This document shows positions 12,771 through 59,647 of a DNA stretch of 64,000 nt, in pieces. This stretch comes from Conchocele bisecta. Lineage: Eukaryota > Mollusca > Bivalvia > Lucinida > Thyasiridae. The stretch is from the NCBI GenBank assembly GCA_029237695.1, contig CM055272.1, positions 35,226,791 through 35,290,790 of the forward strand, written 5' to 3'. Under the pieces are notes generated by a model. It made no database searches and was not told the DNA's origin. It saw only the letters and a list, made by a program, of their open reading frames with translations. A program made the position numbers and the translations under genes. How positions within the stretch are numbered: position 1 is the first letter of the stretch; each line of letters begins with the position of its first letter.

Positions 12771-13380
12771 TTACCACTGAGGCTTTGGAGTTGACGCTAA
12801 GTACGACCGCAATATTGAACGAATTTCACACATTTTTAACTCGGGGATACTTAATGTGGGTTGAACCGTGTCCAAATTCACACGAAGGAAACATATTTGC
12901 TGCACGGGTCCTTCCACTTTGCTGTAGTTTATACAGAATCCTAGTCGCCTGAGTTGAGACATCAATGTGTTCAGAATATTTAGGCATTCGCCATAGGTGT
13001 CAGTGACAATGAGGAAATCGTCTAAATACGCAATGATACCATGCATCCCCTTGGCAGCCATGATGGCTCTCACTGCCTGTGTTATCCGGTGAAATGTTTC
13101 CGGGCTTTGGCTGGTGCCGAATGGAAGCCGTTCGTCAATCACGTATGTATCAATACTATCCGCGTGAAATCGCCATTTTAGGCCTGTTGCCTTATAATTA
13201 GAGGGGTGAATTTTAACACTACGGTAAGCACTCGCCAAGTCCACCTTAGCACAGTAAGCACCTGGGGTAATTAGATCTACCGCGTCCTGTAATGATTGAT
13301 AACGGAATGGGTAGTTATACGCGAAGTCGTTTAATGCTTGCCACGGGGGGCGACTGGCATCGTGTATGAGACGAATGCCG
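12771..13380 (-). pseudogene. Reverse transcriptase fragment (C-terminal palm/thumb), DIRS-like
   Basis: The frame shows IRLIHDASRP, the QSLQDAVDLITPGAYCAKVD block, the LPFGTSQSPETFHRI block and the active-site YLDDFLIV, as in DIRS-type reverse transcriptases. It is cut at its upstream side by the non-LTR insertion and loses the tail after the thumb through a small deletion. The same frame in copy 2 (54751-55812) continues unbroken across the insertion point. It is non-functional as it stands. Confidence 0.85.
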
Positions 13381-14608: not shown

Positions 14609-14908
14609 TTTCCGATTTCTTGGATACAACTCCCAATGCCGAAACAATACAGGGTTTCTCATGAAAAATCTTATAACGACCGTTATCTGATTCTGTACGA
14701 ATTTGTGATTCAACACGCGCGCGCATAAGGGCATCAGTGGCGGATTTATAATTATTCGTTTCCACGGGTTGTCGGATTTTCTCCGCGTCCACAATATGGA
14801 ATTCGTCGCGAATACCGAATATGCTGAATTCCCTGTCGCCGTAATCCATGGACAGGTCCGCTTCCCAGGTGTCTAACCGCAAGGCTGTTGATGGTTGCTT
14901 ACCGGGCT
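14609..14908 (-). pseudogene. Reverse transcriptase N-terminal part, DIRS-like copy 1
   Basis: The minus-strand frame, joined to the overlapping gag end, encodes PLEPGKQPSTALRLDTWEAD and continues to ALMRARVESQIRTESDNGRY. The corresponding intact stretch is in copy 2 at 55540-55840. The frame is severed at 14608 by the non-LTR insertion. At the gag/RT overlap this copy reads A ACA AAC rather than the slippery A AAA AAC of copy 2. Confidence 0.8.
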
Positions 14909-15615
14909 CTAGTGGTTTGTTGGCGCATTGTCCTTGGTGGCGCCATCGCTGAACTGGCGAGGGTGTCGACATTTACAAGATGTGCCAAACGGGCAGGCAC
15001 CTTTCGCCTTGAAGATCTTGCAGTCTTCTTTTCTCTCCGGTGCTGGTCCCTGGACTGACCCCTGTCCCTGTACCGTCTGGCGTCGTTTGGGAGTGAGAAG
15101 TTGTAACTCCATATGTGGACCGAAGGTTCCCCATTTGAACTGGTGTTCCGCTTGCATCTCCCGGCAGTGGAAATCGCATGTACGCATGTCGCAGTTGCAT
15201 GTACGGGTACACTAACAACAGGGGGTGGGACATTCCCAGACAGCAACTCATCTAGTCGCTTACCTGCGTCATTTAGGCCGATCGTTTGTGCCCGAATGTC
15301 CTTGATCGCAATGTCGTCGTCGACATGGTTGACGGCACTGACTGGCGTCTGATCGTCGTCGACGGTCGCCGGCTTCTGGAGATCACATTTAGCGGCCATG
15401 ATCAGCTTATATTGACCCATCGTAAATCCAAGTTCCTTCACATCCCGTACTTCCAACAATTTAATCGCTTTCCTTGTCGTTAATTCCTCCTTTTTCAGAA
15501 CTAACACAGATTTCCTCGTTAAACCACATTATACGGCCCATGCATCGAAATCAAACGAGTCCGTTTCTGCCGTCAACACAATGTCCACATGGTCATCACT
15601 GATATCGGTTGCCAT
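14909..15615 (-). pseudogene. Gag-like protein of DIRS-like copy 1, internally deleted
   Basis: The start ATG lies at 15613-15615, with the stop TAG at 14909-14911. The N-terminal region carries the LKKEELTTRKAI and ELGFTMGQYKLIMAA helices seen in copy 2, which look SAM-domain-like. The C-terminal part carries a CCCH zinc finger, CKIFKAKGACPFGTSCKCRH. About 360 bp of the middle is missing relative to copy 2 and the two halves are in different frames. A frame break in the first 35 codons (near 15508-15530) also separates the ATG from the helix region. Confidence 0.75.
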
Positions 15616-31235: not shown

Positions 31236-31550
31236 TACATTTCCAACAAAAAACTGATGTAATTTGAGCATTTATTCAGTATTTTCAGTACTTTTATAAA
31301 TCGTCCCATTCAAGTAGATAATTTTCGGTATTCATATTCCGGGGCCGCGTCATGAACGTCATGAACGTCATGAACGTCATGAAGTAGAGACGTCATGAAG
31401 AAACTTCCGCGTAGTGACGTCATGAAGGCACTTGGTCTACGCGCGGCCCCGGAATGAGCATTGCCTAAAGCCATATTCAAACAGCTCGCTCTATATGTTG
31501 TGCACATATGTGCAAACAACGGAAACCATGTAACAATATTTAAATAGACT
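31236..31550. other. Spacer left of Polinton copy A, with a GACGTCATGA cluster
   Basis: Inverted GGGGCCGCG / CGCGGCCCC arms at 31341-31450 enclose four tandem TGAACGTCA units and two TGACGTCA or GACGTCATGA palindromes. The Polinton homology stops at about 31551. Confidence 0.6.
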
Positions 31551-32195
31551 TGTACTTTTGTTCGGCCTGAGCCGTCATCAGTCTGAACGGATCTGGACTC
31601 TTCCACAATTTCAGACTCAGTGGAACATCATGCAGTAGTAGTCTGTCCTGTTGGCACAAGTCTATGGCTAGGGGTCCAATCATCTCGGCTTCTATGCCTC
31701 CCTTCGTATAGGTCGATCTAGTATGAAGACCACCAATTGGTCCGTCAGTCGACGGATCATCCATAAAGTTCCCGCTGGTATCCTTTGAGATAGTTGCCAC
31801 ACGAGTTTCCGAGCATCCACTTCGTCCAACACATTATCCAGGTATGCTTTGTAAGGGTAATTGCACCCCGTTTCGCTGACGGGATGTTGTTGTACGTTGA
31901 AATCGACTTGAGAAAATATAGTATGTAGAGGCGAGTTACTTAATCCCACTTCGTCATCGTCGGTTATAGCCAAGCCGTCGTTCTTGACAATTTTTAGTTT
32001 TATATACAATATACTGTTCTTCAAGTCCACGTACTGTGTGGAAGTACCCGGAATGGAAAACTCTATAGCGGAGCCTTCCGTGAGCTGATTGATTGGCCGA
32101 TGAGTTATCCATTCTTTATATCGTATTCCCGTTTCGGTAAGAGGCATTTGGAACAAAGCCAATTCGTCGTCGTGAATTTCATTTATTGAGGCCAT
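31551..32195 (-). pseudogene. Polinton major capsid protein (hexon-like), truncated and frameshifted
   Basis: The frame starts MASINEIHDDELALFQMPLT and contains EFSIPGTSTQYVDLKN, the hallmark N-terminal region of Polinton double-jelly-roll capsid proteins, which build the icosahedral shell. The frame shifts near 31795-31805, where copy B has one more T, and Polinton homology ends at 31551. Only about half the 421-codon gene of copy B is present. The start overlaps the end of the core-protein gene by 13 bases. It cannot encode a working capsomer as it stands. Confidence 0.88.
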
Positions 32196-32614
32196 AATTT
32201 GTTTTTGGTGATCTTCTTAGAAGATTTCTTCTTCTTAGATACAGTAAGTATCTTCTTCTTATAAGCTTGTGAGGTCTTTTTCTTAGATGATTGTTCGATC
32301 TTCTTCTTAGAAGGTTTCTTCTTCTTCTTACAGGATTGTGTGAGCTTCTTCTTCTTATTAACTGTCCGTCTTTTGGGAGCGTACCTTTTCTTCCCGAAGG
32401 TGTTCATGGCACCTTCTTGATGCTTCAGATCCGATTTCGCCAGTTCCACGGCGTGTGCCGTAGGTGTAACGAATGTGATCGACGGTTCCGCCGGTTTGTT
32501 ACCTCCCGTTTGAACGGAACGAACGAAGTAGTGTCCGTATTTATCGGGTCTCATTGACCCTTTCGACATGTTAGCAAAATGCCTCTGCCACACGTCGACA
32601 TCGTGGGTGGTCAT
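32183..32614 (-). CDS. Lysine-rich Polinton virion core-like protein
   Basis: 143 residues. The first 90 (MTTHDVDVWQRHFANMSKGS onward) are ordinary, and the last 50 are runs of KKK separated by S, P or T. Small very basic proteins in this position resemble adenovirus core proteins that condense DNA, and that role is inferred. The frame is intact in both copies (142 residues at 37943-38371, one lysine fewer). Its end overlaps the capsid gene start. Confidence 0.7.
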   Translation of the reverse strand: MTTHDVDVWQRHFANMSKGSMRPDKYGHYFVRSVQTGGNKPAEPSITFVTPTAHAVELAKSDLKHQEGAMNTFGKKRYAPKRRTVNKKKKLTQSCKKKKKPSKKKIEQSSKKKTSQAYKKKILTVSKKKKSSKKITKNKLWPQ

Positions 32615-32620
32615 GTTTTC

Positions 32621-32986
32621 CTAAGATGAAGAGACTAAATGTTTCAGATTGTCTCCTCTTATAAAGATTCGAACTCGTTGAAATGAGTCGGTTTTAACCG
32701 TTACGTACTGATACGCTAATGACGTTCTGTTTTCTCGAGTTGTATTGAATATGGTTCGTAGAATGGGATAAAACGTATCGCACACGTACGAGTCTTCGAT
32801 CAAGTCGCAGCACACGTGTATAGTGGTCGTCTCTATGTCGTTGGGAAATATTAATTCAGCCAAACCGCATTCCCAGATGCCGTCTAAATATAATGGTCTA
32901 GGTATTTCCACCGTAAAATCATATGCCGTATTTCCGGGATGACTCGCTTTCGAATCCTCACTGGATAAGAGCAGATAGTAACTCAT
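32621..32986 (-). pseudogene. Polinton penton-like minor capsid protein, C-terminus altered
   Basis: It begins MSYYLLLSSEDSKASHPGNT and includes DFTVEIPRPLYLDG and CGLAELIFPND, the recognisable N-terminal half of Polinton single-jelly-roll minor capsid (penton) proteins. Against copy B (37545-37946) a net 26-bp deletion near 32633 shifts the frame, replacing the last 17 residues by VSSS. The lost part contains the conserved CTLH strand at the C-terminus. Probably non-functional. Confidence 0.82.
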
Positions 32987-32994
32987 GATCCTTC

Positions 32995-33333
32995 TTATAA
33001 ATGTTCATCGATCAACCGTTTGAGTGTACGCCACTGTCGACGGTCCAACGATATACCGATGATGGTAGCGGTGCCGTTTAAGAATTTTCTGATATCTACT
33101 ATAGCGTCACCGCACGATGTAGCGTATATATTCCCTCCTAGACTATACTGATTGGCGAACCCCCACGAAGTCAGATTTAAGGTCCGCACTTCTGAACTTT
33201 CTTGGGAAATGGTTATACCTAATATCACTAACAGCGGTGACAGAATCGTCACTAACATCAAAGATATGCCTAGTAATTTGACGATCGCTAAGTGGTATTT
33301 CGTGACCGAAGACGTTTCTATGAAAGTTTCCAT
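32995..33333 (-). CDS. Polinton small membrane protein
   Basis: 112 residues with one strong hydrophobic segment, LLGISLMLVTILSPLLVILG (about residues 19-38), then a predicted exposed domain with two cysteines. The function is unknown. Copy B has the same protein with an 18-residue in-frame deletion. The gene lies 8 bp upstream of the penton-like gene and 34 bp downstream of the integrase. Confidence 0.6.
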   Translation of the reverse strand: METFIETSSVTKYHLAIVKLLGISLMLVTILSPLLVILGITISQESSEVRTLNLTSWGFANQYSLGGNIYATSCGDAIVDIRKFLNGTATIIGISLDRRQWRTLKRLIDEHL

Positions 33334-33367
33334 CTTCTTATACCAATTAATGGTGTAGGCAACGTTC

Positions 33368-34471
33368 TTATGAGTAATCTTTCACATCAATCTCAGGAAT
33401 CCATGAGTCGTATTTTTTGGGCCAATGAAGCCACCTAACGAGTACTTCCTTCAGATTGCCTCGCTTTCGTCTTCTAAGGATCTTGTCAATACGGAACGTT
33501 GTGTTCTCGTCTACACGTATCGACTGCAGTTCCTGTTCGTAAAACGTTCCCGATATCGCCTCTCCTTCCCAGTCATCCAATTTATATACGGGTATATTCT
33601 GTCGTAAATACCCGCTCTTGACTTTGAACAGTTCGCCGGTCCATTTTTGGGAATATTCTCCATCGAATACTCCTCTGACGTGAGATATTCGCACGATATC
33701 TCCGATATTATACTTCATTTTATGAATGGGTTTAGCTTCGGTAGGTCGACGTATCAGATACTGACGTAAACGTGACTCACTTTCGTTATTTTTCGTCACT
33801 GAAGACGGCGTTGTACTGAGTGAGCGGTGATTAGTATTGTTGCAGCTGGTCACTATATCTGTTAGAGCATCTACGTATCTATACGAATTGTTCTTCAGAA
33901 TGTATCTGTATATTTTGTGTTTGATAGTTTTAATAACCCTTTCCGCGTAGTTGGCTTTGGTTTCGTTTTGGGTGACGACGAAATGATCAATATCCGTATC
34001 CTTCAAGTACTTTTTCACGTCTCTGTTCGTAAATTCGGATCCTTTGTCCGTCCCGATGGACCCTGGTTGTCTCCCATTTAGGAACGTCTCTGTCATGGCT
34101 TTGGACACTTCCTTTCCCGTTTTATTCTTCAGAGAATGACACCACAGATAACGAGAAAAGATGTAAATCATCACGAGAACGTACTTGACGCCATCGTTAT
34201 ATTTAGAAATATTGCTCATGTCCATCAGATCCACATCCCATCGACTGTCTATACCATCGACGATCACTCGGGAACGTTCGAATTTTCTTCTGGCGTATCT
34301 GGTAAACGAATAAGCCTCTTGATCTTGTAACCATTGACGTACGTCTCGTTTCGTTATTTTAAATTTTCCCTCCAATTTCACTATCTTGCAGAGTTTATCC
34401 GGACCCGAAAAACTTCCAGGGTATTTGGGATCGAAATATATAGACGACAGGTAATCTTTCCAGTCAGACAT
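33368..34471 (-). CDS. Polinton retrovirus-type integrase with chromodomain
   Basis: 367 residues, apparently intact. It would insert element DNA into chromosomes. The RNase-H-like catalytic core spans about residues 70-230, with the acidic triad at D81 (in WDVDLMDM), D142 (in TDKGSEF) and E177 (in NYAERVIKTIK), spaced D-34-E. An SH3-like region follows (KYNIGDIVRIS), and a C-terminal chromodomain covers residues 325-367 (FRIDKILRRRKRGN, then tryptophans at 347, 350 and 357), which may steer integration to marked chromatin. A canonical HHCC finger is not obvious. The start overlaps the stop of the 75-residue gene by one base. Copy B lacks the first 29 codons. Confidence 0.93.
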   Translation of the reverse strand: MSDWKDYLSSIYFDPKYPGSFSGPDKLCKIVKLEGKFKITKRDVRQWLQDQEAYSFTRYARRKFERSRVIVDGIDSRWDVDLMDMSNISKYNDGVKYVLVMIYIFSRYLWCHSLKNKTGKEVSKAMTETFLNGRQPGSIGTDKGSEFTNRDVKKYLKDTDIDHFVVTQNETKANYAERVIKTIKHKIYRYILKNNSYRYVDALTDIVTSCNNTNHRSLSTTPSSVTKNNESESRLRQYLIRRPTEAKPIHKMKYNIGDIVRISHVRGVFDGEYSQKWTGELFKVKSGYLRQNIPVYKLDDWEGEAISGTFYEQELQSIRVDENTTFRIDKILRRRKRGNLKEVLVRWLHWPKKYDSWIPEIDVKDYS

Positions 34472-34698
34472 TATAAACTAATCCACTTAGATAGTCTCTT
34501 CTTTTTATGGGATCTGATACCTGGAGGAATTATTCGATCCGTCGTAGATCCTTGACGTTCAGAGTCCTTCTTCGGTCGTTGACAATCGAGATCATCAGTT
34601 TGAACAGCCTTTTCTATGGCATCTCTACTACGGGTATTGTTGGGATGTCCAACGTATTTTTCGTAAGGTACCAGAACAGTCTTTCGTACTTCCTTCAT
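34471..34698 (-). CDS. Small basic Polinton protein, 75 residues
   Basis: No recognised domain. Basic at both ends, with a Lys-rich C-terminus (KKKRLSKW). It overlaps the preceding 108-residue gene by four bases (ATGA) and the integrase start by one base, which supports a real gene in a compact viral array. Confidence 0.5.
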   Translation of the reverse strand: MKEVRKTVLVPYEKYVGHPNNTRSRDAIEKAVQTDDLDCQRPKKDSERQGSTTDRIIPPGIRSHKKKRLSKWISL

Positions 34699-35021
34699 GT
34701 TAAAAAGTTACTAAGTACCCCCTCGATAGACTTGATAAGTATCACGATCACCAGATCTCGACCTCTCAACAGATTTTGCTTTCTACGTAGACTGACTGAT
34801 TTGTCTCCGAGAGTACGTATCAACGTCTTGTACTTTCCGAGTTCGCTTTTCCTTTTAGACGTGAGCGGTAATACTCCCTCCAATAAATTGACGATAATTT
34901 CGATGAGGGCCTTTAGTTGATATTTGGTAATGGTGTCCAATAACGCTCTTCTATGCTTCCTAGATGAGGTCGTTGACATCAGTTGGAAGAATGCGACGTT
35001 CTTCTTAACTAATTTACTCAT
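34695..35021 (-). CDS. Conserved small Polinton protein, 108 residues
   Basis: It has a helical region with the pattern KHRRALLDTITKYQLKALIE, then PLTSKRKSELGKYKTLIRTL, and a hydrophobic C-terminal helix (DLVIVILIKSIEGVLSNF). I recognise this layout (ALL...QLKAL, PL, then K-rich, then a hydrophobic tail) from invertebrate Polintons, where it is a small structural-type protein of unproven role. It may be an adenovirus pVI/pX-like virion protein, but that is inference. Confidence 0.6.
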   Translation of the reverse strand: MSKLVKKNVAFFQLMSTTSSRKHRRALLDTITKYQLKALIEIIVNLLEGVLPLTSKRKSELGKYKTLIRTLGDKSVSLRRKQNLLRGRDLVIVILIKSIEGVLSNFLT

Positions 35022-35052
35022 CTTGTTATAATTTTCAGACGTCTCACACCTC

Positions 35053-35705
35053 TTATAAACTGCTCGCCACGTATATGACGGGATCTTCTCCGACGAATAC
35101 GTTCGTTCTCAGTCTATATTCATCCTCGGCGTAAGGAACGCTGTCGACTAGTAAATAACCGAATGGACGTTTCGTAGCGTCCTGATACGCTTCAACGAGT
35201 ATACCCGACTTTCTAGGAAATATCTGACGTCCTAACGTAGCGATCTGAGTCATATCTCTGACATTCTTGAACAAAACGAGGTACCCGGTGTTGAGAGCTA
35301 TGGTACGAGCGGACTTGCCGCGACTGTAAAGGTTTTGTACGACAAATATAACGCTAATATTCTGGTGATGACAGCCTCTCGTGAACAGATGTTCCATTTC
35401 CGGATTCTCCACCACTCTATGCATCAGGTCGTCTAAAACGATCAGTCCTTGTTCACCGTCGGCAAACTCGTCTATTTCGGGCCGATTCGGGAGTCCTTGA
35501 TGTAGAGTGAAACTAGGAATGTCCCTTTCGAGATCATTGAAAAGTGGTTGGAATGACCCGTAACAGTACAGTATCTTCTTAGGTGGATCCTTGACGTACA
35601 TTCCATCTAGATTCTTTAGTAATCGTACGATCCAATGAGTCTTTCCGACTCCAGTAGGACGGAGTTAAACTCTCGGCTTCCCACCAGTCCATATTTACCA
35701 GTCAT
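35053..35705 (-). pseudogene. Polinton FtsK/HerA-type DNA-packaging ATPase, frameshifted at Walker A
   Basis: The related A32/FtsK-HerA ATPases pump DNA into capsids. The likely start ATG is at 35703-35705. After about 17 codons the frame changes by one base near 35660-35670, and the Walker A (PTGVGKTHW) and all the rest are in the second frame. Walker B is EQGLIVLDDLMH, followed by the arginine-bearing SVIFVVQNLYSRGKSARTI sensor region. The C-terminal half runs unbroken to the TAA at 35053. One indel therefore inactivates it unless it is a sequencing error. Copy B lacks this gene. Confidence 0.85.
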
Positions 35706-35717
35706 GCGGTATATAGT

Positions 35718-36017
35718 CTATTTATAAGTTTCTCGTTTCTTCATCTGGGGATTAGGTAAAGCGTAACCTATGCAACTACTCAATAAACTGATCCAAAGTT
35801 CCGTAGATCCATTTTGTAATGACAGATTCGTTATTGAAGCGATGATTATAATGTACACTATTATCATCTGACAAAAGTATACAATTTCTTCCCGCGGAAC
35901 GCGAGTTCCTAGCAAATGCCAAAGTTCTTCGTTAACTTCTTGGTCAACGTCAGGTTTTGGGAAACCTATATCTTCTTCTTCTTCTAACAAGGTTTCAGAA
36001 GTATTTGTTTCCGCCAT
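35718..36017 (-). CDS. Polinton membrane protein, 99 residues
   Basis: An acidic N-terminus (EEEEDIGFPKPD) is followed by VPREEIVYFCQMIIVYIIII, a transmembrane helix, then NLSLQNGSTELWISLLSSCIGYALPNP with a second helix. This helix-loop-helix pattern ending in GY.LPNP is one I recognise from small unnamed Polinton proteins. The frame is intact. It is the first gene inside the terminal repeat, preceded by a TTATAAGAAG motif at 36041-36056. Confidence 0.6.
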   Translation of the reverse strand: MAETNTSETLLEEEEDIGFPKPDVDQEVNEELWHLLGTRVPREEIVYFCQMIIVYIIIIASITNLSLQNGSTELWISLLSSCIGYALPNPQMKKRETYK

Positions 36018-36065
36018 ATTCTTGATTGAGATATATAAGACTTCTTCTTCTTATAAACATTACCA

Positions 36066-36115
36066 TAAGAGGTCACTCTGCATACATCGTACGAGATGCA
36101 CTCAGACTTGTGACT
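36066..36115. repeat. Polinton copy A terminal inverted repeat
   Basis: Read outward-in on the minus strand it begins AGTCACAAGTCTG and ends GCAGAGTGACCTCTTA. 45 of 50 bases match 51251-51300. The AG start is the usual Polinton terminus. Family J host repeat follows directly on its outer side. Confidence 0.8.
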
Positions 36116-36183
36116 TTTTTTATCAGGCTCGGCTCGGAAACGGTAGGAATTCCTCGGCAAGCCATTCCTAGGCGTTTCCTAGC
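36116..36183. repeat. Family J fragment between the two Polinton copies
   Basis: TCAGGCTCGGCTCGGAAACG with GGAATTCCT matches J1 and J2. It separates the terminus of copy A from the truncated start of copy B. Confidence 0.65.
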
Positions 36184-37217
36184 CTCCGGATAAACTCTAC
36201 AAGATAGTGAAATTGGAGGGAAAATTTAAAATAACGAAAGGAGACGTACGTCAATGGTTACAAGATCAAGAGGCTTATTCGTTGACCAGATACGCCAGAA
36301 GAAAATTCGAACGTTCCCGAGTGATCGTCGATGGTATAGACAGCCGATGGGATGTGGATCTGATGGACATGAGCAATATTTCTAAATATAACGATGGCGT
36401 CAAGTACGTTCTCGTGATGATTTACATCTTTTCTCGTTATCTGTGGTGTCATTCTCTGAAGAATAAAACTGGAAAGGAAGTGTCCAAAGCCATGACAGAG
36501 ACGTTCCTAAATGGGAGACAACCAGGGTCCATCGGGACGGACAAAGGATCCGAATTTACGAACAGAGACGTGAAAAAGTACTTGAAGGATACGGATATTG
36601 ATCATTTCGTCACCCAAAACGAAACCAAAGCCAACTACGCGGAAAGGGTTATTAAAACTATCAAACACAAAATATACAGATACATTCTGAAGAACAATTC
36701 GTATAGATACGTAGATGCTCTAACAGATATAGTGACCAGCTGCAACAATACTAATCACCGCTCACTCAGTACGACGCCGTCTTCCGTGACGAAAAATAAC
36801 GAAAGTGAGTCACGTTTACGTCAGTATCTGATACGTCGACCTACCGAAGCTAAACCCATTCATAAAATGAAGTATAATATCGGAGATATCGTGCGAATAT
36901 CTCACGTCAGAGGAGTATTCGATGGAGAATATTCCCAAAAATGGACCGGCGAACTGTTCAAAGTCAAGAGCGGGTATTTACGACAGAATATACCCGTATA
37001 TAAATTGGATGACTGGGAAGGAGAGGCGATATCGGGAACGTTTTACGAACAGGAACTGCAGTCGATACGTGTAGACGAGAACACAACGTTCCGTATTGAC
37101 AAGATCCTTAGAAGACGAAAGCGAGGCAATCTGAAGGAAGTACTCGTTAGGTGGCTTCATTGGCCCGAAAAATACGACTCATGGATTCCTGAGATTGATG
37201 TGAAAGATTACTCATAA
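36184..37217 (+). pseudogene. Polinton integrase of copy B, N-terminally truncated
   Basis: It matches residues 25-367 of the copy A integrase, with a one-codon deletion (a single V in HFVTQNE) and a few substitutions. The frame is open from 36186, and the nearest ATG is at 36207. The DDE residues and the C-terminal chromodomain are preserved. The missing first two dozen codons leave it without its original start. Confidence 0.88.
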
Positions 37218-37251
37218 GAACGTTGACTACACCATTAATTGGTATAAGAAT

Positions 37252-37536
37252 ATGGAAACTTTCATAGAAACGTCTTCGGTCACGAAATACCACTTAGCGA
37301 TCGTCAAATTACTAGGCATATCTTTGATGTTAGTGACGATTCTGTCACCGCTGTTAGTGATATTAGGTATAACCATTTCCCAAGAAAGTTCAGAAGTGCG
37401 GACCTTAAACCTGACTTCGTGGGGGTTCGCCAATCAGTATAGTCTAGGAGGGAATATATCCGCTACCATCATCGGTATATCGTTGGACAGTCGACAGTGG
37501 CGTACACTCAAACGGTTGATCGATGAACATTTATAA
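37252..37536 (+). CDS. Polinton small membrane protein, copy B, 54-bp deletion
   Basis: 94 residues, identical to the copy A protein in the membrane segment but missing 18 residues near residue 70. The deletion is flanked in copy A by the short direct repeat CGCTAC, which suggests slippage or microhomology repair. The frame is kept. Confidence 0.65.
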   Translation: METFIETSSVTKYHLAIVKLLGISLMLVTILSPLLVILGITISQESSEVRTLNLTSWGFANQYSLGGNISATIIGISLDSRQWRTLKRLIDEHL

Positions 37537-37544
37537 GAAGGATC

Positions 37545-37946
37545 ATGAGTTACTATCTACACTTATCCAGTGAGGATTCGAAAGCGAGTCATCCCGAAAA
37601 TACGGCATATGACTTTACGGTGGAAATACCTAGACCATTATATTTAGACGGCATCAGGGAATGCGGTTTGGCTGAATTAGTATTTCCCAACGACATAGAG
37701 ACGACCACGATACACGTGTGCTGCGACTTGATCAAAGACTCGTACGTGTGCGATACGTTTTATCCCATTCTACGAACCATATTCAATACAACTCGAGAAA
37801 ACAGAACGTCATTAGCGTATCAGTACGTAACGGTTAAAACCGACTCAATTCAACGAGTTCGAATCTTTATAAGAGGAGACAATCTGAAACATTTAGACTC
37901 TGATTCTGACTCTGTGAACTGTACTCTTCATCTTAGGAAAACATGA
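37545..37946 (+). CDS. Polinton penton-like minor capsid protein, copy B
   Basis: 133 residues, begins MSYYLHLSSEDSKASHPENT, same family as 32621-32986. It retains the Asp/Ser-rich C-terminal tail that ends CTLHLRKT, as expected of the last strand of a jelly roll. The frame is open, so this is the better copy of the two. Its stop overlaps the core-protein start by four bases. Confidence 0.85.
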   Translation: MSYYLHLSSEDSKASHPENTAYDFTVEIPRPLYLDGIRECGLAELVFPNDIETTTIHVCCDLIKDSYVCDTFYPILRTIFNTTRENRTSLAYQYVTVKTDSIQRVRIFIRGDNLKHLDSDSDSVNCTLHLRKT

Positions 37947-38371
37947 CCACCCACGATGTCGACTTGTGGCAGAGGCATTTTGCTAACATGTCGAAAGGGT
38001 CAATGAGACCCGATAAATATGGACACTACTTCGTTCGTTCCGTTCAAACGGGAGGTAACAAACCGGCGGAACCGTCGATCAAATTCGTTACACCTACGGC
38101 ACACGCCGTGGAACTGGCGAAATCGGATCTGAAGCATCAAGAAGGTGCCATGAACACCTTCGGGAAGAAAAGGTACGTTCCCAAAAGACGGACAGTTAAT
38201 AAGAAGAAGAAGCTCACACAATCCTGTAAGAAGAAGAAGAAACCTTCTAAGAAGAAGATCGAACAATCATCTAAGAAGAAGACCTCACAAGCTTATAAGA
38301 AGATACTTACTGTATCTAAGAAGAAGAAACCTTCTAAGAAGATCACCAAAAACAAATTATGGCCTCAATAA
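37943..38371 (+). CDS. Lysine-rich Polinton core-like protein, copy B
   Basis: 142 residues, one lysine shorter than the copy A protein and otherwise nearly the same, with a KKK-rich second half. Its start overlaps the penton-like stop (ATGA), and its end overlaps the capsid start by 13 bases. Confidence 0.7.
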   Translation: MTTHDVDLWQRHFANMSKGSMRPDKYGHYFVRSVQTGGNKPAEPSIKFVTPTAHAVELAKSDLKHQEGAMNTFGKKRYVPKRRTVNKKKKLTQSCKKKKKPSKKKIEQSSKKKTSQAYKKILTVSKKKKPSKKITKNKLWPQ

Positions 38372-39623
38372 ATGAAATTCACGACGACGAATTGGCTTTG
38401 TTCCAAATGCCTCTTACCGAAACGGGAATACGATCTAAAGAATTGATAACTCATCGGCCAATCAATCAGCTCACGGAAGGCTCCGCTATAGAGTTTTCCA
38501 TTCCGGGTACTTCCACACAGTACGTGGACTTGAAGAACAGTATATTGTATATAAAACTAAAAATTGTCAAGAACGACCGCTTGGCTATAACCGACGATGA
38601 CGAAGTGGGATTAAGTAACTCGCCTCTACATACTATATTTTCTCAAATCGATTTCAACGTACAATAACATCCCGGCAGCGAAACGGGGTGCAATTACCCT
38701 TACAAAGCATACCTGGATAATGTGTTGGACGAAGTGGATGCTCGGAAACTCGAGTGGCAACTATTCTCAAAGGATACCAGCGGGAACTTTATGGATGATC
38801 CGTCGACTGACGGACCAAATGGTGGTCTTTATACTAGATCGACCTATACGAAGGGAGGCATAGAAGCCGAGATGATTGGTCCCCTAGCCATAGACTTGTG
38901 CAAACAGGACAGATTTCTCTACTGAATGGTGTTCCACTGAGTCTGAAATTGTGGCAGAGTCCGGATCCGTTCAGACTGATGACGGCTCAGGCCGAACAAA
39001 AGTACAAGGTTGCCATCACCGATGCCAGTTTGAAGTTGTCTTTAGTCAAAGTGGATCCTAACGTTTTCATAGCGCAATCTAACGTATTGAAGGACCACAG
39101 CGCTCTCTACCCGTATACGAGAACTAATATAAAGACGTACGCGGTACCCAGGTGTCAATATAGCTTCATTACCGACGACCTGTTTCAAGGAGAAGTCCCG
39201 AAACAACTGATCTTGGGTATCGTATCTTCCTCGGCAACTCACGGTTCCTACGTCAAGAATCCCTTCTACTTTCAAAACTTAAACTGTATCTACGTAGGAT
39301 TCTTCGTCGATGGCAAATCTACGCCATCGCATCCATTACAACCGAACTACGAAGCCGGTAGTTTCTTAGAGGCTTACCAAAGATTGTACTCTGTCGATCG
39401 ACCACGAGCCGCACCAATTACTAGAGAATCATTCGCGGACGGATATTGTTTGTACGTATTCAACCCGGACGGAGACGTCAGAGATCGGATCCGTCAGAGA
39501 GCTCATACTCTACTAGAGCTAAAGTTCGCCAAATCTCTACCAGAAGCTTGTACCGTGATCGTATATTCCAAGTTCCCCGCATTGATGAAAATAGATGCCA
39601 GTCGGAACGTTACTCTGGAATGA
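38359..39623 (+). pseudogene. Polinton major capsid protein, copy B, one nonsense codon and one frameshift
   Basis: It spans about 421 codons. The N-terminal part (FSIPGTSTQYVDLKN) ends at a TAA (38665-38667), where copy A has CAA, a single C-to-T change. The same frame resumes to a TGA at 38923-38925, where a small indel has shifted the frame. The remaining two thirds (from about 38926) read in the next frame to the TGA at 39621-39623. The shell-forming double jelly roll is recognisable in all three pieces. Confidence 0.9.
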
Positions 39624-40060
39624 TGAATACTCGACAACTTCGTACGGCACTGACCTCAAATCCCACGACTCGAAGTCAGTTCGGAGGAGTGTGTTCGGCG
39701 GATATGATACCTAACATCGTTCGACGTCGGCCTAGACTTTATATAGTCAATACGGATACCAGTTCTTATCCCGGTAAAAATTGGGTGTCGTTTTATTTTC
39801 CGACAAAGGGACCCCCGGAATTCTTCGACCCCATGGGACACTCCCCCGAGTATTACCATCTCTGATTCCGGAACGTTTTACTGACCAACGGACCTAAATA
39901 CATTTACAATTGTCGGAGATTACAAGGCCCCGAATCAGTATATTGCGGACAGTTTTGCTTGTATTACGGATATCGACGTTGTCGAGGAACGAGCATGATA
40001 ACGATAGTCAACGAGTTTAGTAGTACAAATTACGTCCTTAACGACGAAATTGAGATGTGA
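39620..40060 (+). pseudogene. Adenovirus-type maturation protease of Polinton copy B, with nonsense codon
   Basis: It would be a 146-codon cysteine protease (adenain/Ulp1-like) that processes capsid precursors. Motifs are GVCSADMIP near residue 24, GKNWVSFYFP at 52-61, FFDPMG at 68-73, and the Gln/Cys pair in CGQFCLYY (Q111, C113). The catalytic histidine expected just before W55 is asparagine (AAT). An in-frame TGA at 39863-39865 stops translation after residue 81, before the cysteine. The start overlaps the capsid stop (ATGA). The rest of the frame is clean to the TGA at 40058. Confidence 0.87.
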
Positions 40061-50400: not shown

Positions 50401-51250
50401 CGAGATGCACCATAAATTAGAAATTAGCTATTTAAACAACAATTGTGGAAACAACATTGGTCGCGAAAACCAATGACTCGGCACATGCATAGGCAATGTT
50501 GAATATCCCCCACCCACTTGAATTCATGTTAGATTGAATACAATGGAATTATTTTAGTAGCCCTGTGGTTAAAAGTGCTGTCGAAGTCAGCACGATTCAA
50601 ATATTGGTCAACAGTAATAAAGAAATAATTCCTACCTGAAACGAATGTTTCGTGTCTGGCAGCTAATAGACTTATGTAAAATGTAGGTCAATTATTGATG
50701 CGTCTTGGCTGTCGCCGTATTGTCCTCTCAACATTAGCAAATTTGCAGAAATGTATTTCCGTACTTAGAGCTTATCAACAACGAAGACAGCAATAATTTC
50801 ACGATGTCTTGGACCAGTACGTGTAATGGCAGGACACGAAATATAGTATGACGTCACAATGAAAACACAATCGCATTTAACAACAAATAACTGACTTTTT
50901 AAACGTAAATTTGTTATTGATTGGTATATTACATTAAAAAAAAGTGTCCTGTGTCCAATAAATTGGACACATGACACTATGGCGTTTAGTAAAAAGGTTC
51001 AAATATTGACTCTGTATGTACCAGACAAAATTACATGCGTATTATTATTTTAATATAACCTATCAATGTTTACAGGTGTTAGCATGTTTCAATATTGAAC
51101 TAGCATATAGCTTGTTGGTATTGGCACACTTTCATTTTACGAACCAATTGTAATTATAGAACGCCTGTAACTATTCACGAGAATATAGGCGTTCTATGAA
51201 AAAAATATATAAAAAATGGGGGGATTGCAAAGAGGGTAATGCAGCATCTC
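47461..51250. other. Intergenic, AT-rich, with a TAACGGTAATGA motif cluster
   Basis: No gene was recognised over 3.8 kb. Between 48120 and 48880 the string TAACGGTAATGA or close variants occurs at least eight times on both strands. Elsewhere there is a hairpin at 51156-51200 (AGAACGCCTGT / AGGCGTTCT). Confidence 0.45.
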
Positions 51251-51300
51251 AGTCACAAGTCTGGGAACATCTCTTACGGTGTATGCAGAGTGACCTCTTA
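51251..51300. repeat. Terminal inverted repeat of Polinton fragment C
   Basis: It begins AGTCACAAGTCTG and ends GCAGAGTGACCTCTTA. It differs from 36066-36115 (reverse complement) at five of 50 positions by eye, and similarity fades at the inner edge. Confidence 0.78.
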
Positions 51301-51337
51301 GGGAATAACGTAGCACAATTTATTTACATAATTTTAT

Positions 51338-51847
51338 TTACAACGTATTTAATTCCAATTCTATAAGAGTAGGAAGTACAACATCATACATATTGTTCTT
51401 GATTCCCGTAATGAGAATTTTACCATTATGAAAACAAGTAAAGTGAACAGTGTCTCTCTTGGGCATGGCAGCTAGAAACAGTTCCGGTTCGTAGTGAGCT
51501 CTCATGTTCATACACAACGATTCCATAGATAGGTTCCCGTTGACTCGGTAATACGCCGACATGGTGACTATCTTCACCTTGGTCGAGTTAACGTCGTACC
51601 CGTAACGACGTAAGCGATCGATGTAAGCGTTGATCCGTATTATGCCCTTTGATTCGCAGTCAGACTTTCCGTTGACGACGATCTTGTCCGTCTTGAACGC
51701 TATGCAGCAACCTCCGAGTTCGGGATCTTTCAATATCGCTCCGTTGAATCTTCGTGGGTCGTATTTGATGTCAGGACATATACAACTCAGACGAGACAAG
51801 TCTATGAGACAGTTACAGTCCGACGTACACACTATATTGGTAATCAT
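51338..51847 (-). CDS. Divergent TATA-box-binding protein (TBP-like), Polinton-associated
   Basis: 169 residues, the size of the TBP core. TBP binds and bends promoter DNA to start transcription. The two-repeat saddle is visible. Repeat 1 has ITNIV at the start, YDPRRFNGAILKDPE, CIAFKTDKIVVNGKSDCES and the helix INAYIDRLRRYGYDV. Repeat 2 has YRVNGNLSMESL, HYEPELFLAAM and VHFTCFHNGKILITGIK. The four phenylalanines that wedge into TATA DNA align at F34, F51, F124 and F139, with the exact 17-residue spacing in repeat 1 and a loop two residues shorter in repeat 2. Elsewhere it is strongly diverged, so it is not a simple copy of the host gene. The frame is intact. Its ATG overlaps the stop of the upstream small gene (ATGA), and its stop lies 38 bp from the terminal repeat. 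Confidence 0.85.
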   Translation of the reverse strand: MITNIVCTSDCNCLIDLSRLSCICPDIKYDPRRFNGAILKDPELGGCCIAFKTDKIVVNGKSDCESKGIIRINAYIDRLRRYGYDVNSTKVKIVTMSAYYRVNGNLSMESLCMNMRAHYEPELFLAAMPKRDTVHFTCFHNGKILITGIKNNMYDVVLPTLIELELNTL

Positions 51848-52040
51848 CGTAGATCGGGTTGATTCCGTATCACGTACACGAAACGATTGGCCGCTTCTCT
51901 CGCTTCGAATTTCAGTTTATAATACGGTATACAATTCTTGGCCACGTATTCGTGAAACAAGTACATCACAACTAACACGTAGTGTCTCTTCGATGCCTAA
52001 GTTTTCAACCGCTGCTCTCGCTTCTCGTATTAGTATTCGT
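51844..52040 (-). pseudogene. Unknown gene upstream of the TBP-like gene, one frameshift
   Basis: The 3' part (from about 51990 to the TGA at 51844-51846) reads MYLFHEYVAKNCIPYY then KLKFEAREAANRFVYVIRN, a helical, mixed-charge protein. Further upstream, near 52000-52040, an adjoining frame reads IREARAAVENLGIEE. The two are one base out of register at about 51985-51995, and no ATG precedes the upstream part. The four-base ATGA overlap with the TBP-like gene suggests co-expression. No family was recognised. Confidence 0.5.
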
Positions 52041-53202
52041 GTACTTAGTTGTATGACTGTCTAACCTATATATAACCAATATATATATTCGCTGTGGTAG
52101 CTATGTCCGTAAGTTGTATGGTTGTCTACAGAGTTTCAACATATGTATATATATATACACGTTCGCTGCGGTAAACATTGTGCATATATTATATAACTAT
52201 AGTCTAATGAATAGTATGACGTTAGACTTCTGACATATAATTATATAACTATATTCTAATGAATACTCGCCAGTACGATAGTTATGTTAGACATTGGTAA
52301 TATATTATATAACTATGGCATAATGTTATGTAGTACCACAATGCTGTTCACTATGGTCACATACTATATAACTAATGAATGGTAGCCAATACAATGGCTG
52401 TGAAAAACATATCACTGTGGTCATATATTATATAACTAATGAATGGTAGCCAATACAATGGCTGTGAAAAACATATTATATAACTATGGTATAATGTTAT
52501 GTAGTACCACAATGCTGTTCACTGTGGTCATATATTATATAACTAATGAATGGTAGCCAATACAATGGCTGTGAAAAACGTTCGTGGTATATTATATAAC
52601 TATCGAACAATAGAATAAATGTTAGCTCAGCGCTAGAGCGTCGGACTAGGGCATTGGATTTCATCGGGGAGTGTATGTCGATATTGACAGTCGAGTCGAT
52701 ATACGTATGTGCGTAATTTGGCACCTGGTACAATGTTGTACATACAATGAAGAATAATTTTACTGTATCGGACTAGGGCATTGGATTTCATCGGGGAGTG
52801 TATGTCGAGTCGTTCTGAGAATGACATCATCGTTCCGCGATTTCATTGGTAAGTTTTGAGATAGATTTTGATTGGTTAACAATATGGCGTTCTGACTGGT
52901 CAACAAGATGTATCTCTTGTCATTCGATCGTTAGTCACCGTGCTGTGAACATCGTATATTTTTAATTTTTAAACAAAAATACTTTAAGGGACATGACAAT
53001 GCGTGGTTTGAGTTATCATCAAAACTTGTTTCAATTGTGAACGCACATTCAGACTATATTGACATTAACGGAAAAATAATAGTGACGATGGTGGGTCACC
53101 CTGCAGATTGATTTGCTAGTGTGAGGGGGGGGGGGTGGTGGGTGGGGTAGGGTATGGTGACACGACAGTCCCACTGATGACGCCTGAAGTCGGCAGAAAC
53201 CC

Positions 53203-53275
<73 letters not shown>

Positions 53276-53296
53276 GTGTGTGTGTATGTGTGTGTA
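53203..53296. repeat. (TG)n microsatellite
   Basis: About 45 TG dinucleotides with a few C or A interruptions. Confidence 0.95.
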
Positions 53297-54264
53297 CCTG
53301 TCAAGAACATACAGAACGTATGATCAGCTCTCGGTGAGTATTATAGCTGATTAGTTTACATTTAAAACCTTCTGCACAGGTATATCAATACATTATATAA
53401 CTAGTGACAGTCACGACGTGCGATATACACGAATGCATGGTCAGTATAGGTACTGTTAAGGTGTGTAATATATTATTATGAATATAACTCCATTTAAGGT
53501 AAGCGTGCAGATTTAATAATATCGATATTGTATAGATGTGTTGTAGTCTATGTTAGAATGAAAAGCTCCAGTATGGTTAGTAATATTTGGGACATAACGT
53601 AATTTATGAGCAAATGTGAAATTATGATGAATACTTTTACTGTATATAGAGCGTCGGACTAGGGCATTGGATTTCATCGGGGAGTTTAGACTTCTGACAT
53701 ATAATTAAATAACTATATTCTAATGAATACTCGCCAGTACGATAGTTACGTTAGACATTGGTCATATATTATATAACTATGGTATAATGTTATGTAGTAC
53801 CACAATGCTGTTCACTGTGGTCATATATTATATAACTAATGAATGGTAGCCAATACAATGGCTGTGAAAAACGTTTGTGGTATATTATATAACTATCGAA
53901 CAATAGAATAAATGTTAGCTCAGCGCTAGAGCGTCGGACTAGGGTATTGGATTTCATCGGGGAGTGTCTGTCGATATTGACAGTCGATATACGTATGTGC
54001 GTAATTTGACACCTGGTACAATGTTGTACATACAATGAAGAATAATTTTACTGTATCGGACTAGGGCATTGGATTTCATCGGGGAGTGTATGTCGAGTCG
54101 TTCTGAGAATGACATCATCGTTCCGCGATTTCATTGGTCAGTTTTGAGATCGATTTTGATTGGTTAACAATACGGCGTTCTGATTGGTCAACAAGATGTA
54201 TCTCATGTCATTCGATCGTTAGTTTATGTGCTGTGAACATCGTATATTTTTAATTTTTAAACAA

Positions 54265-54750: not shown

Positions 54751-55812
54751 TTAAATAAATCCATGAAATGGATCCACCACAATATGCCAGCTTTCATCTC
54801 CACAGCCACACGTGTACGATGCCATGGTGAACGTTGCAGCATTGGCACGGTCAATTAGGTGCCTCATGTAAAACCGACCTCCATATATGCATTGCGTAAT
54901 CCAATTAAGTTTACCACTGAGGCTTTGGATTTGACGTTTTGTAACTTTATGAAACGCTAAGTACGAGCGCAATATTGTACGAATTTCACACATTTTTAAC
55001 TCGGAGATACTTAATGTGCGTTTAACCGTGTCCAAATTCACACCAATGAAACATATGTGCTGCACGGGTCCTTCCACTTTGCTGTAGTTTATACAGAAGC
55101 CTAGTCGCCTGAGTTGAGACATCAATGTGTTCAGAATATCAAGGCATTCGCCATAGGTGTCACTGACAATGAGGAAATCGTCTAAATACGCGATGATACC
55201 ATGCGTCCCCTTGGCAGCCATTATGGCTCTCACTGCCTGTGTTATCCGGTGAAATGTTTCCGGGCTTTGGCTGGCGCCGAATGGAAGCCGTTCGTCAATC
55301 ATGTATGTGTCAATATTATCCGCGTGAAATCGCCATTTTAGGCCTCTTGCTTTATAATTAGAGGGGTGAATTTTAACACTACGGTAAGCACTCGCCAAGT
55401 CCACCATAGCACAGTAAGCACATGGGGTAATTAGATCTACCGCGTCCTGCAATGATTGATAACGGAATGTGGAGTTATACGCGAAGTCGTTTAATGCTTG
55501 CTCCGTGGGGCGACTGGCATCGTGTATGAGACGAATGCCGTCCGATTTATTGGGTACAACTCCCAATGCCGAAACAATACAGGGTTTCTCATGAACAATC
55601 TTATAACGACCGTTATCTAATTCCGTACGAATTTGTGATTCAACACGCGCGCGCATAAGGGCATCAGTGGCGAATTTATAATTATTCGTTTCCACGGGTT
55701 GTCGGATTTTCTCCGCGTCCACAATATGGAATCCGTCGCGAATACCTGATATGATGAATTCCCTGTCACCGTAATCCATGGGCAGGTCAACTTCCCAGGT
55801 GTCTAACCGCAA
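54751..55812 (-). CDS. Reverse transcriptase (RNase H truncated), DIRS-like copy 2
   Basis: 353 codons from the ATG at 55810-55812. The frame is open further upstream across the gag end (to about 55850), so translation probably starts by frameshift from gag. It would copy element RNA into DNA. Motifs are GVVPNKSDGIRLIHDASRP, YQSLQDAVDLI, MVDLASAYRSV, LPFGASQSPETFHRI, the catalytic IIAYLDDFLIVSD and SLSGKLNWITQ (thumb). After DESWHIVVDPFHG a one-base shift puts the RNase H motif FNGTMPMVENRP out of frame, so the protein ends early. Confidence 0.88.
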   Translation of the reverse strand: MRLDTWEVDLPMDYGDREFIISGIRDGFHIVDAEKIRQPVETNNYKFATDALMRARVESQIRTELDNGRYKIVHEKPCIVSALGVVPNKSDGIRLIHDASRPTEQALNDFAYNSTFRYQSLQDAVDLITPCAYCAMVDLASAYRSVKIHPSNYKARGLKWRFHADNIDTYMIDERLPFGASQSPETFHRITQAVRAIMAAKGTHGIIAYLDDFLIVSDTYGECLDILNTLMSQLRRLGFCINYSKVEGPVQHICFIGVNLDTVKRTLSISELKMCEIRTILRSYLAFHKVTKRQIQSLSGKLNWITQCIYGGRFYMRHLIDRANAATFTMASYTCGCGDESWHIVVDPFHGFI

Positions 55813-55838
55813 GGCTGTTGATGGTTGCTTACCGGGCT

Positions 55839-56915
55839 CTATTGGTTTTTTGGCGCATTGTCCTTGGTGTTTTTTGGCGCATTGTCCTTGGTGGCGCCAT
55901 CGCTTAACTGGCGAGGGTGTCGAAATTTACAAGATGTGCCAAACGGGCAGGCACCTTTCGCCTTGAAGATTTTGCAGTCTTCTTTCCTTTCCGGTGCTGG
56001 TCCCCTGACTGACTCCTGTCCATGTACCGTCTGGCGTCGTTTGGGAGTGAGCAGTTGTAACTCCATATGTGGAGTGAAGGTTCCCCATTTGAACTGGTGT
56101 TCCGCTTGCATCTCCCGGTAGTGGAAATCGAAGTCCAGCACGCTATGCCACTCGTATTTCTCAGCAAATTCGAATATTTTTGCTGTGTACGCCAGGTAAT
56201 ACTCCATGTCTGGCCGAGGCAACTGTACTGTCTGTAATAGATGGTTGAGTACCCGGCGGTTTGATGCACCCCATTCCTCGATATAAATCCCAGCATATGG
56301 GTGATCATCCTCGCATTTGATGAGAAAACGCTCACTGTCCGGGCCGCTTGTTTTCATCACGAAATCCTTCCGCCTGCTCTAACGTCGACGTTTAGCCTTT
56401 TCCGTCAGGAACTGTGTCACGTGCACAGCTTTGCGAGACTGTGACTTCATAGTCAATATTGTTCGCGGATCGACTGTAGATGTAGGGTTTTCAGTCGCAT
56501 GTACGGGTACCCTAACAACAGGGGGTGGGACATTCCCAGACAGCAACTCATCTAGTCGCTTACCTGCGTCATTTAGGCCGATCGTTTGTGCCCGGATGTC
56601 CTTGATCGTAATGTCGTCGTCGACATGGTTGACGGCACTGACTGGCGTCTGATCGTCGTCGACGGTCGCCGGTTTCTGGAGATCACATATAGCGGCCATG
56701 ATCAGCTTATATTGACCCATCGTAAATCCAAGTTCCTTCACATCCCGTACTTCCAACAATACAATCGCTTTCCTTGTCGTTAATTCCTCCTTTTTCAGAA
56801 CTATCACAGATTTCCTCATTAAACCACATTCTGCGGCCCATGCATCGAAATCAAACGAGTCCGTTTCTTCCGTCAACACAATGTCCACATGGTCATCACT
56901 GATATCGGTTGCCAT
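55839..56915 (-). pseudogene. Gag-like protein with SAM-like N-terminus and CCCH zinc finger, one nonsense codon
   Basis: One frame from the ATG at 56913-56915 to the TAG at 55839-55841, broken by an in-frame TAG at 56379-56381. The N-terminal region has an acidic stretch, then the helical LKKEELTTRKAI / ELGFTMGQYKLIMAA segment, which is SAM-like. The middle has EWGASNRRVLNHLLQTVQLP, and the C-terminal part a nucleic-acid-binding CCCH finger (CKIFKAKGACPFGTSCKFRH, spacing C-8-C-5-C-3-H). Its last codons lie in a 24-bp tandem duplication containing the slippery heptamer. Confidence 0.85.
55845..55875 (-). promoter_or_regulatory. Candidate -1 ribosomal frameshift site at the gag/RT overlap
   Basis: The heptamer A AAA AAC is in the gag zero frame at 55845-55851, immediately before the gag TAG, and again at 55869-55875 through a 24-bp duplication. 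Slipping back one base enters exactly the RT frame. This is one of the strongest known retroviral slippery sequences. A downstream pseudoknot was not tested. Confidence 0.6.
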
Positions 56916-58463: not shown

Positions 58464-59647
58464 ATGGAAAATACAACAAGTATTTCGACGGGATCACGCC
58501 ATCTAGCAGAGGAGATGAACAGTGACATGGCGTCAGCAGTTTTACCTGTCACCATCTTCGTTGGAATAGAGGCAGGTATGGCGTTCTTTGGCAACTTGTT
58601 AATTTTATACGTTTTTGTGTTTAAGTACCACAGTTGCAATTTCAAATATTTCGTGCTGTGTCTGTCCGTGATTGACATTACTAGCAGCTTGACAACAATA
58701 CCTGGAGAGATATTCACGCAGACGCACTGGTATGTTTATCCGTATCCAATGATTTGCAAAATAAAATCTTTCTTCAACATGTTTACTGTGGTGGCGTCCG
58801 CTCTGAGTCTTTTGGTGATAGCCGTTGACAGATTCCGGAAGGTTTGCCGCCCGTTCGCCTGGCAGATTAAGAGAAGGACAGCCATGGTTTTGTGCTTAGT
58901 TATTCTATTCATATCGACCGTCGTAGCCTTCCCGGGCGCAATCCTCTGGGGTACGCACGACGCCAATGTTACGTACAAAGGGGAGTCAGTGATCGTCACA
59001 GAATGCGAGATAGACCAGGCATACGAACACACGCACGCACCGTTCGCGTACACGGCTACTATGTCCGGCACGATAGGCATTGTCCTAGTATCTATGCTAG
59101 TACTGTATGTGTTCATTGTAAAAGCGCTCTTCAAGCGGAAATCACCAAAACGCGACGTTCAACCGACTGAAAGGGGAAACGAACCACCTACAAAGAGCAA
59201 CGTGCTGCTGGAAGTGCCAAACCTTGTGCACGTCGACTCGTCAAGTGCCATAGAATACGTACATTCCAATGCTGACGAGTTCACAACGCGTAGTATTACG
59301 GAAACGTCAAACAACGCATTGCCCGATGAAAACAAGAACCAAACTACTCAGAAACCACAGTGCAAACGATATCGAGCGACAACGACAACGGAGAGAAACG
59401 CCATTGTACGGAGAAAGACGATGATCATGCTGGTCTAACATCAGTGTTTATTATAACCACGGTTTTGTACCTAACGCTACTCTCGTGTATAGCCATGGAC
59501 GTGTTAGACAATATGTCCTACTCGGACAAAACCATGTATTTCTTCTTCTTCCGACTTTACTTCATAAACCACGCGGTCAACCCATGGGTGTACGGGTTTC
59601 TCGACCCGCATTTCCGTAAGGTGATTAAGACATGCAAGACATCATGA
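58464..59647 (+). CDS. Class A (rhodopsin-like) G-protein-coupled receptor, one frameshift before TM6
   Basis: A cell-surface receptor in a single exon. Visible are an N-terminal glycosylation site (NTT), TM1 with GN (N44), TM2 with the sodium-site D71, the disulfide pair C98 and C181, TM3 ending DRF (122-124) instead of DRY, TM4 and TM5, and a long Ser/Thr/Asn-rich third loop. The first frame stops at 59436-59438 just after RRKTMIMLV, the usual entry to TM6. TM6, TM7 with NPWVY (the NPxxY motif) and the tail continue in another frame, ending at 59647. One missing base near 59436 explains this. The ligand is not predictable; such orphan receptors are greatly expanded in molluscs. Lack of introns fits either that expansion or a retrocopy. 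Confidence 0.85.

Follow-up and report, generated by a model that had tools for sequence, protein, structure and literature searches.

A TATA-binding protein gene carried by Polintons of two lineages in the bivalve Conchocele bisecta

Introduction

Polintons, Mavericks and adintoviruses are recognised by an integrase with rve and chromodomain parts, a family B DNA polymerase (PolB), an adenain-like protease, a packaging ATPase, capsid-like genes, long terminal inverted repeats (TIRs) and 6-bp target-site duplications (TSDs). A TATA-binding protein (TBP) is not among these hallmarks, and to our knowledge the only viruses with a known TBP are giant viruses and mirusviruses, together with herpesviruses, whose proteins are remote homologues. 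Here we describe a TBP gene in a 64,000-nucleotide stretch of the Conchocele bisecta genome (the window; GCA_029237695.1, CM055272.1, positions 35,226,791 to 35,290,790). With a probability of roughly two in three, we regard it as a copy of a TBP gene carried by Polintons of two lineages, whose product acts as the element's own TBP.

The closest described systems come from larger viruses. In the portion of PMC4893493 available, the herpesvirus TBP-like proteins (BcRF1 of Epstein-Barr virus, EBV; ORF24 of Kaposi's sarcoma-associated herpesvirus, KSHV; UL87 of cytomegalovirus, CMV) recruit host RNA polymerase II (Pol II) to late promoters. An extract of PMC10132985 gives TBP in 59% of mirusvirus genomes and in 0% of Nucleocytoviricota by that study's clusters, and a section of PMC12085832 proposes that a haptophyte virus redirects host Pol II via TBP and TFIIB. 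A term search of the accessible text of a preprint on Polinton evolution (PMC11071308) gave no mention of TATA, TBP or PC4. Within the searchable part of the open-licence literature, no Polinton, Maverick or adintovirus TBP was found, the co-mentions whose text was read concerning giant-virus and mirusvirus TBPs, and no article was found that joins Polinton with PC4 or adintovirus with TATA-box.

Results and discussion

A TBP gene at 51338-51847

51338..51847, minus strand: Polinton TBP gene, a 169-residue open reading frame (ORF)
51844..51996, minus strand: 3' part of TMhyp, a short ORF that both lineages keep between PC4 and TBP (53 residues align to the C7 copy at 86.8%)

A first-pass annotation, made from the letters of the window, had placed a 169-residue product here without giving a strand; the ORF lies on the minus strand, the plus strand carrying stops. 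The two TBP repeats it described are recovered by PF00352 in two stretches (E 3.2e-17, 62.6 bits, cut-off 22.9). The YEPELF motif and the phenylalanines F34, F51, F124 and F139 are present as claimed, each aligned to a phenylalanine of yeast TBP that we take to be one of the intercalating residues 99, 116, 190 and 207. In an alignment of 131 rows (126 database proteins, some incomplete, and five loci), these residues are kept in 115/125, 129/130, 129/131 and 116/131 rows, respectively; the fourth is variable (F 116, H 12, Y 3), and the PEL motif is mostly conserved. The asserted distance from animal TBP also held, as only 28 of 89 aligned residues are common with the TBP exons of this genome, in contrast to those host exons, which are identical to yeast TBP at 79 of 91 residues. 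Likewise, the overlap with an upstream ORF was found, the TGA of TMhyp at 51844-51846 overlapping the TBP ATG to make ATGA.

Modelling predicts a saddle fold for the product. The structural match that the annotation had called for exists in BFVD, where several matches are named as TBPs of giant viruses, and the top match, the unnamed entry A0A5P9U4S6, could be an earlier-known viral relative.

Linkage to Polinton genes

All 115 first-look candidates in the genome were scored, giving 101 TBP matches that merged into 74 loci. Lineage groups were cut at 66% identity, with one C41 and one C5 locus moved by hand, and comprise 18 close loci, including the window copy, and 56 distant ones. A Polinton protease and/or integrase lies near 66 of the 74 loci (65 without the window locus), i.e. 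near 16/18 close and 50/56 distant ones. Within 10 kb, an integrase occurs at 8/18 close loci, always downstream on the opposite strand, and at 26/56 distant loci, always downstream on the same strand (111 of 7428 integrase candidates scored). A protease occurs within 15 kb at 16/18 close and 39/56 distant loci (150 of 541 candidates scored, first 73 rows used). It follows 118-229 bp downstream on the opposite strand at 15 of the 18 close loci, the sixteenth being the window locus, and shares the strand of TBP at 38 of the 39 distant ones. The proposal that TBP is a Polinton gene is thus borne out by linkage at 66/74 loci, by one locus inside an element bounded by TIRs and a TSD, and by linkage on independent contigs.

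A host TBP, TRF or TBPL1 gene or retrocopy that came to lie near a Polinton by chance, or a domesticated copy, would be another explanation, and a Mercenaria record is indeed named TATA-box-binding protein-like 1. This record (P0180), however, groups inside the Polinton TBP family. Homologues are not confined to host TBP/TRF loci: the host TBP exons at C5 and the C4 exons, which we read as TBPL1-like, are intron-split and stand apart from the Polinton TBP loci, and those of one C5 copy translate as canonical TBP. Together with the nearly fixed layout at 66/74 loci and the low identity to host exons (28/89), this refutes a host origin for the family as a whole and leaves it hardly credible for the window copy. 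The host gene itself appears twice, as two apparently canonical copies at C5:122358184 and C5:122754954, about 0.4 Mb apart and in opposite orientation, which could be an assembly duplication.

Coinciding contigs indicate that linkage to Polinton integrases recurs elsewhere. A profile search of protein databases returned 348 proteins at E <= 1e-5; among the 120 of these listed, names point to molluscs (Mercenaria, and Sedimenticola and Thiodiazotropha bins, presumably bivalve symbionts). Among the relatives of the integrase are Solemya symbiont bins, Ruditapes, Mercenaria and Gigantopelta. When 122 TBP rows were compared with 120 integrase rows, 11 contigs coincided in size and source (120 shifted controls: mean 0.52, maximum 4), two of them, a Mercenaria chromosome and a 6.3-Mb contig, carrying little weight alone; above 2500 bases, 10 coincided (control mean 0.16, maximum 1). 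Scans of viral contigs with TBP, two TBP alignments, the integrase and a capsid-like ORF, and scans of a genome-contig collection, gave no confirmed relative.

A complete element and its gene layout

The copy on C13 spans C13:13711231-13730547 (19,317 bp) with TBP at 13727622-13728128. At its ends lie inverted repeats of about 870 bp (98%) that start AGTAGTAG, and AATGCG flanks both sides as a 6-bp TSD. Inside lie an rve integrase, 89% to the window integrase, and a family B DNA polymerase (PF03175 at 13718739-13720649) whose region is broken into several ORFs; the protease is a weak match below the cut-off (PF00770, 18.7 bits against 21.3). The left terminal repeat of this element occurs three times in tandem at L020:732-3580, each copy being about 900 bp long.

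Gene layouts were assembled from separate copies, with capsid-module ORFs named on our assumption. The close lineage runs PolB, repeat, 93-aa ORF, ATPase, two ORFs and integrase, followed by a PC4-like ORF with a hydrophobic stretch, three presumed capsid-module ORFs, protease and repeat; on the opposite strand after the repeat come TBP, TMhyp, tandem PC4 and a 96-aa ORF. The distant lineage has PC4a, TMhyp, PC4 with a hydrophobic stretch, PC4b, TBP and integrase on one strand. TMhyp is common to both (61.5% over 39 residues), and PC4 adjoins TBP in eight of nine loci examined, L010 being without it. Tandem PC4 domains (PF02229) are clear in the close-lineage neighbour (L011; E 2.1e-20, 72.4 bits, cut-off 25), and PC4b of the distant lineage (L015:6326-6886; 1.9e-11, 43.7 bits) is above the cut-off as well, with two other L015 paralogues below it (4e-4 and 2e-3). 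The PC4-like ORFs at 32995-33333 of the window and L015:5781-6188 have, by eye, an N-terminal hydrophobic stretch, so that a likely membrane anchor is joined, unusually, to a single-strand-binding fold.

The repeat in these layouts had been taken for a Polinton terminal repeat 38 bp from the TBP gene.

51251..51306, plus strand: internal Polinton repeat, adjoining TBP in L001-L012 and recurring after PolB in L018
36059..36115, minus strand: the other copy of this repeat in the window, where Polinton fragment A is cut

It ends 31 bp from the ORF, and the two window copies match over 57 columns (51251-51306 to 36115-36059; 88%, E 1e-12). In L009 and L012 it sits between TBP and protease. The C13 element holds two copies, one following PolB and one separating protease from TBP (L018 5402-5520 and L012 597-719; 89.5% over 124 columns). 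Since these copies are direct and inside the element, with the TIRs elsewhere, the repeat is internal, and a terminal repeat beside TBP is ruled out by the C13 copy, whose true ends lie elsewhere.

This architecture also bears on a role in replication or packaging, in which TBP bends DNA at an origin or in the virion and transcription is secondary. TBP does bend DNA, the close-lineage gene shares its arm with PC4-like genes, and the repeat is common to the 3' side of PolB and the TBP/protease junction. On the other hand, the mostly conserved PEL motif has no known packaging use and the partner, PC4, comes from a family of transcription coactivators, so that we consider such a role quite improbable next to that of a promoter factor.

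Residue signature and selection

Polar contacts in the middle of the face that binds DNA are typical of TBP, if not family-defining. We take them to be Asn69, Thr124, Asn159 and Thr215 in yeast TBP, and compared the family with yeast, Sulfolobus and the host exons, the last without position 159. Asn69 (125/125) and Thr215 (125/131) are kept. The Thr124 position holds Asn in 106 rows, Gln in 20, Ser in four and one gap, but Thr in none; the Asn159 position holds Thr in 130 of 131 rows and Ser in one, but Asn in none. From these replacements, a shift of preference at the centre of the TATA box is predicted for the Polinton TBP.

For L015 against four other distant-lineage copies, dN/dS (non-synonymous over synonymous substitution rates) is 0.10-0.12 (dS 0.47-0.51), and the window copy against six other close-lineage copies gives 0.27-0.34, low values that suggest purifying constraint; within subgroups values range from 0 to 0.93 at low dS. 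The pairs exclude L006 (short ORF) and L009-L012 (repeats of L002-L005). Private changes of the window protein include a Leu directly after YEPELF, where other close copies have Pro and once Gln, and a Pro four residues further, where they have Phe or Leu. In a midpoint-rooted tree, 38 Polinton-type rows split from the cellular rows (support 100/100), of which there are only three, one consisting of two exons only.

A protein with altered centre contacts in nearly all family rows might instead be a weapon that sequesters TFIIB, TFIIA or TATA boxes without productive initiation and shuts down host genes, and PC4 is able to repress. Still, the PEL motif, the predicted saddle, most of the four phenylalanines and the low dN/dS fit a working promoter factor at least equally well, and an element that encodes a DNA polymerase and an ATPase of its own needs to have its genes read. 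We therefore judge the weapon unlikely and prefer the element's own working TBP.

Proposed role in element transcription

The basis of this preference is the TBP sequence, the predicted fold, the residence in Polintons beside PC4-like genes, the low dN/dS and the distinct signature; DNA binding, recruitment of TFIIB and Pol II, and timing are what we infer from them. The element TBP would bind TATA-like promoters of the element and bring in host TFIIB and Pol II. Host TBP would start the early arms, PolB and PC4-TMhyp-TBP, in the close lineage from a box of the TATAAAAG type that an initiator-like site follows at 31 nt, after which the element TBP and PC4-like proteins would favour the integrase-capsid arm. 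Element transcription could thereby be partly freed from the host, as the first-pass annotation had suggested.

Candidate promoters occur in these arms. A TATAAAAG/TATAAATG box with an initiator-like TCATTC/CCATTC is common to the leader on the PolB side (L018) and that of PC4 (L009, L011, L012); the A of the initiator-like site lies 31 nt after the first T of the box and 60 nt before an ATG, and 0.04-0.12 such pairs are expected per locus. TATAAGA occurs six times in sense and once in antisense in 4570 nt, and TATAAG precedes 6/15 close-lineage starts (1.3 expected); the late motif is kept only as a weak lead. In its most specific form, the promoter module, a TBP with swapped Asn/Thr code plus several PC4 proteins, would build an element-specific pre-initiation complex on TATAAG-type late promoters, with ordinary TATA and initiator promoters on the early arms and a herpesvirus-like temporal switch in an element of about 19 kb. 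We offer this tentatively, with rather more doubt than confidence.

A number of observations speak against the reading as a whole or its promoter part. Neither partner gene was found at 8/74 TBP loci, ends were verified for the C13 copy only, 5.5 kb guessed to hold the left end of the C7 copy yielded no TIR, and the position of TBP relative to integrase differs between the two lineages. For the signature contrast there are three cellular rows, of which two cover the Asn159 position. PolB scoring covered 83 of 2443 candidates; of the 83 best-scoring places, merged by hand, 81 are without TBP within 20 kb; most of them thus do without it, and for this reason the TBP module looks lineage-restricted among Polintons. 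The TATA and initiator sites are one homologous family rather than independent cases, the pair in L013 sits 166 nt before the ATG, and no pair was found in L015, L019 or two window stretches. TATAAGA was chosen post hoc; it precedes 6/8 starts in fragment A and 6/10 late-arm starts once the C13 ATPase and protease are added, several of its occurrences share bases with codons or stop codons of the gene before, and ATAAGA precedes 3/12 distant-lineage starts (1.7 expected). With homologous sites and a post hoc, partly coding motif, the early/late switch is therefore treated as a hypothesis.

The window locus and neighbouring features

51199..52044, minus strand: block that runs colinear with the C7 TBP arm (91%)
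52050..53909, no strand: repeats also upstream of TBP in the C2 and C7 loci, with no C13 terminal-repeat match reported

The window copy is a remnant in which the TBP frame is open and the element broken. The block at 51199-52044 resembles the TBP arm of four other loci at 86-93%, but PC4 and the 96-aa ORF, both present in the C7 copy, were not found after it in the window. No complete element with ends was found at 51.2-53.9 kb, which holds just the TBP block and repeats. The nearest protease is 11.3 kb away in fragment B, one of two Polinton fragments:

35053..35601, minus strand: fragment A packaging ATPase (93.5% at 35056-35658 to the ATPase ORF of C13, by tblastn)
33368..34471, minus strand: Polinton integrase (rve and chromodomain), fragment A (PF00665, 4e-11)
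32995..33333, minus strand: fragment A PC4-like ORF (E 0.021 to PC4, under the cut-off) with, as judged by eye, a hydrophobic stretch at its N-terminus
31692..32195, minus strand: N-terminal part of a likely major capsid protein (no Pfam hit)
36363..37217, plus strand: integrase, fragment B, inverted duplicate of fragment A
39620..40057, plus strand: adenain-like protease, fragment B, its frame carrying a stop

The Pox_A32 match of the ATPase (0.018) is below the cut-off, the PC4-like ORF aligns with its distant-lineage homologue (34%, 6e-14), and the capsid label is our assumption. Fragments A (minus) and B (plus) form an inverted duplication at 31549-40060, mostly 96-99%, with a junction near 36.12-36.19 kb, a probable fold-back rearrangement. 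Elsewhere, two retroelement copies (54751-56915 and about 12800-15500; 95-97%) carry a reverse transcriptase and a CCCH-finger ORF, and a plus-strand ORF at 58464-59438 resembles, by eye, a rhodopsin-type GPCR.

Comparison with known systems

The elements described here share with Polintons, Mavericks and adintoviruses the rve-chromo integrase, PolB (PF03175), long TIRs starting AG and a 6-bp TSD, and have a putative adenain-like protease, a putative ATPase and presumed capsid-like genes, but they add TBP and PC4-like genes. The two repeats, saddle, intercalating phenylalanines and PEL motif are those of cellular TBP (PF00352), whereas the residues at yeast positions 124 (Asn, Gln or Ser in 130/130 lettered rows) and 159 (Thr in 130/131) are not. 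Similarly, the tandem domains of the gene beside TBP are those of the PC4/p15 coactivator (PF02229), but the Polinton forms are two-domain or carry a hydrophobic stretch and reside inside a mobile element.

With mirusviruses and giant viruses these elements have in common a TBP in double-stranded DNA viruses of eukaryotes, although the genomes of the former are far larger. No RNA polymerase or TFIIB genes were recognised in the pieces read, for which no separate search was made. Beta- and gamma-herpesviruses also encode a TBP-like factor, but theirs are remote TBP relatives that, in the part of PMC4893493 available, read TATT boxes with five partner proteins. The Polinton protein is a minimal 169-residue TBP core with clear Pfam-level homology and hypothetical late-promoter use, and would be a functional analogue only. 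Given the known viral carriers, what is new here is therefore the smaller carrier, the PC4 partners and the distinct residue code, while the factor itself is known. Carriage of basal transcription factors extends to small integrating elements, and a Polinton early/late switch becomes directly testable. The Mercenaria 'TBPL1' record is a misannotated member of this family, which offers a natural TBP variant with altered predicted DNA contacts.
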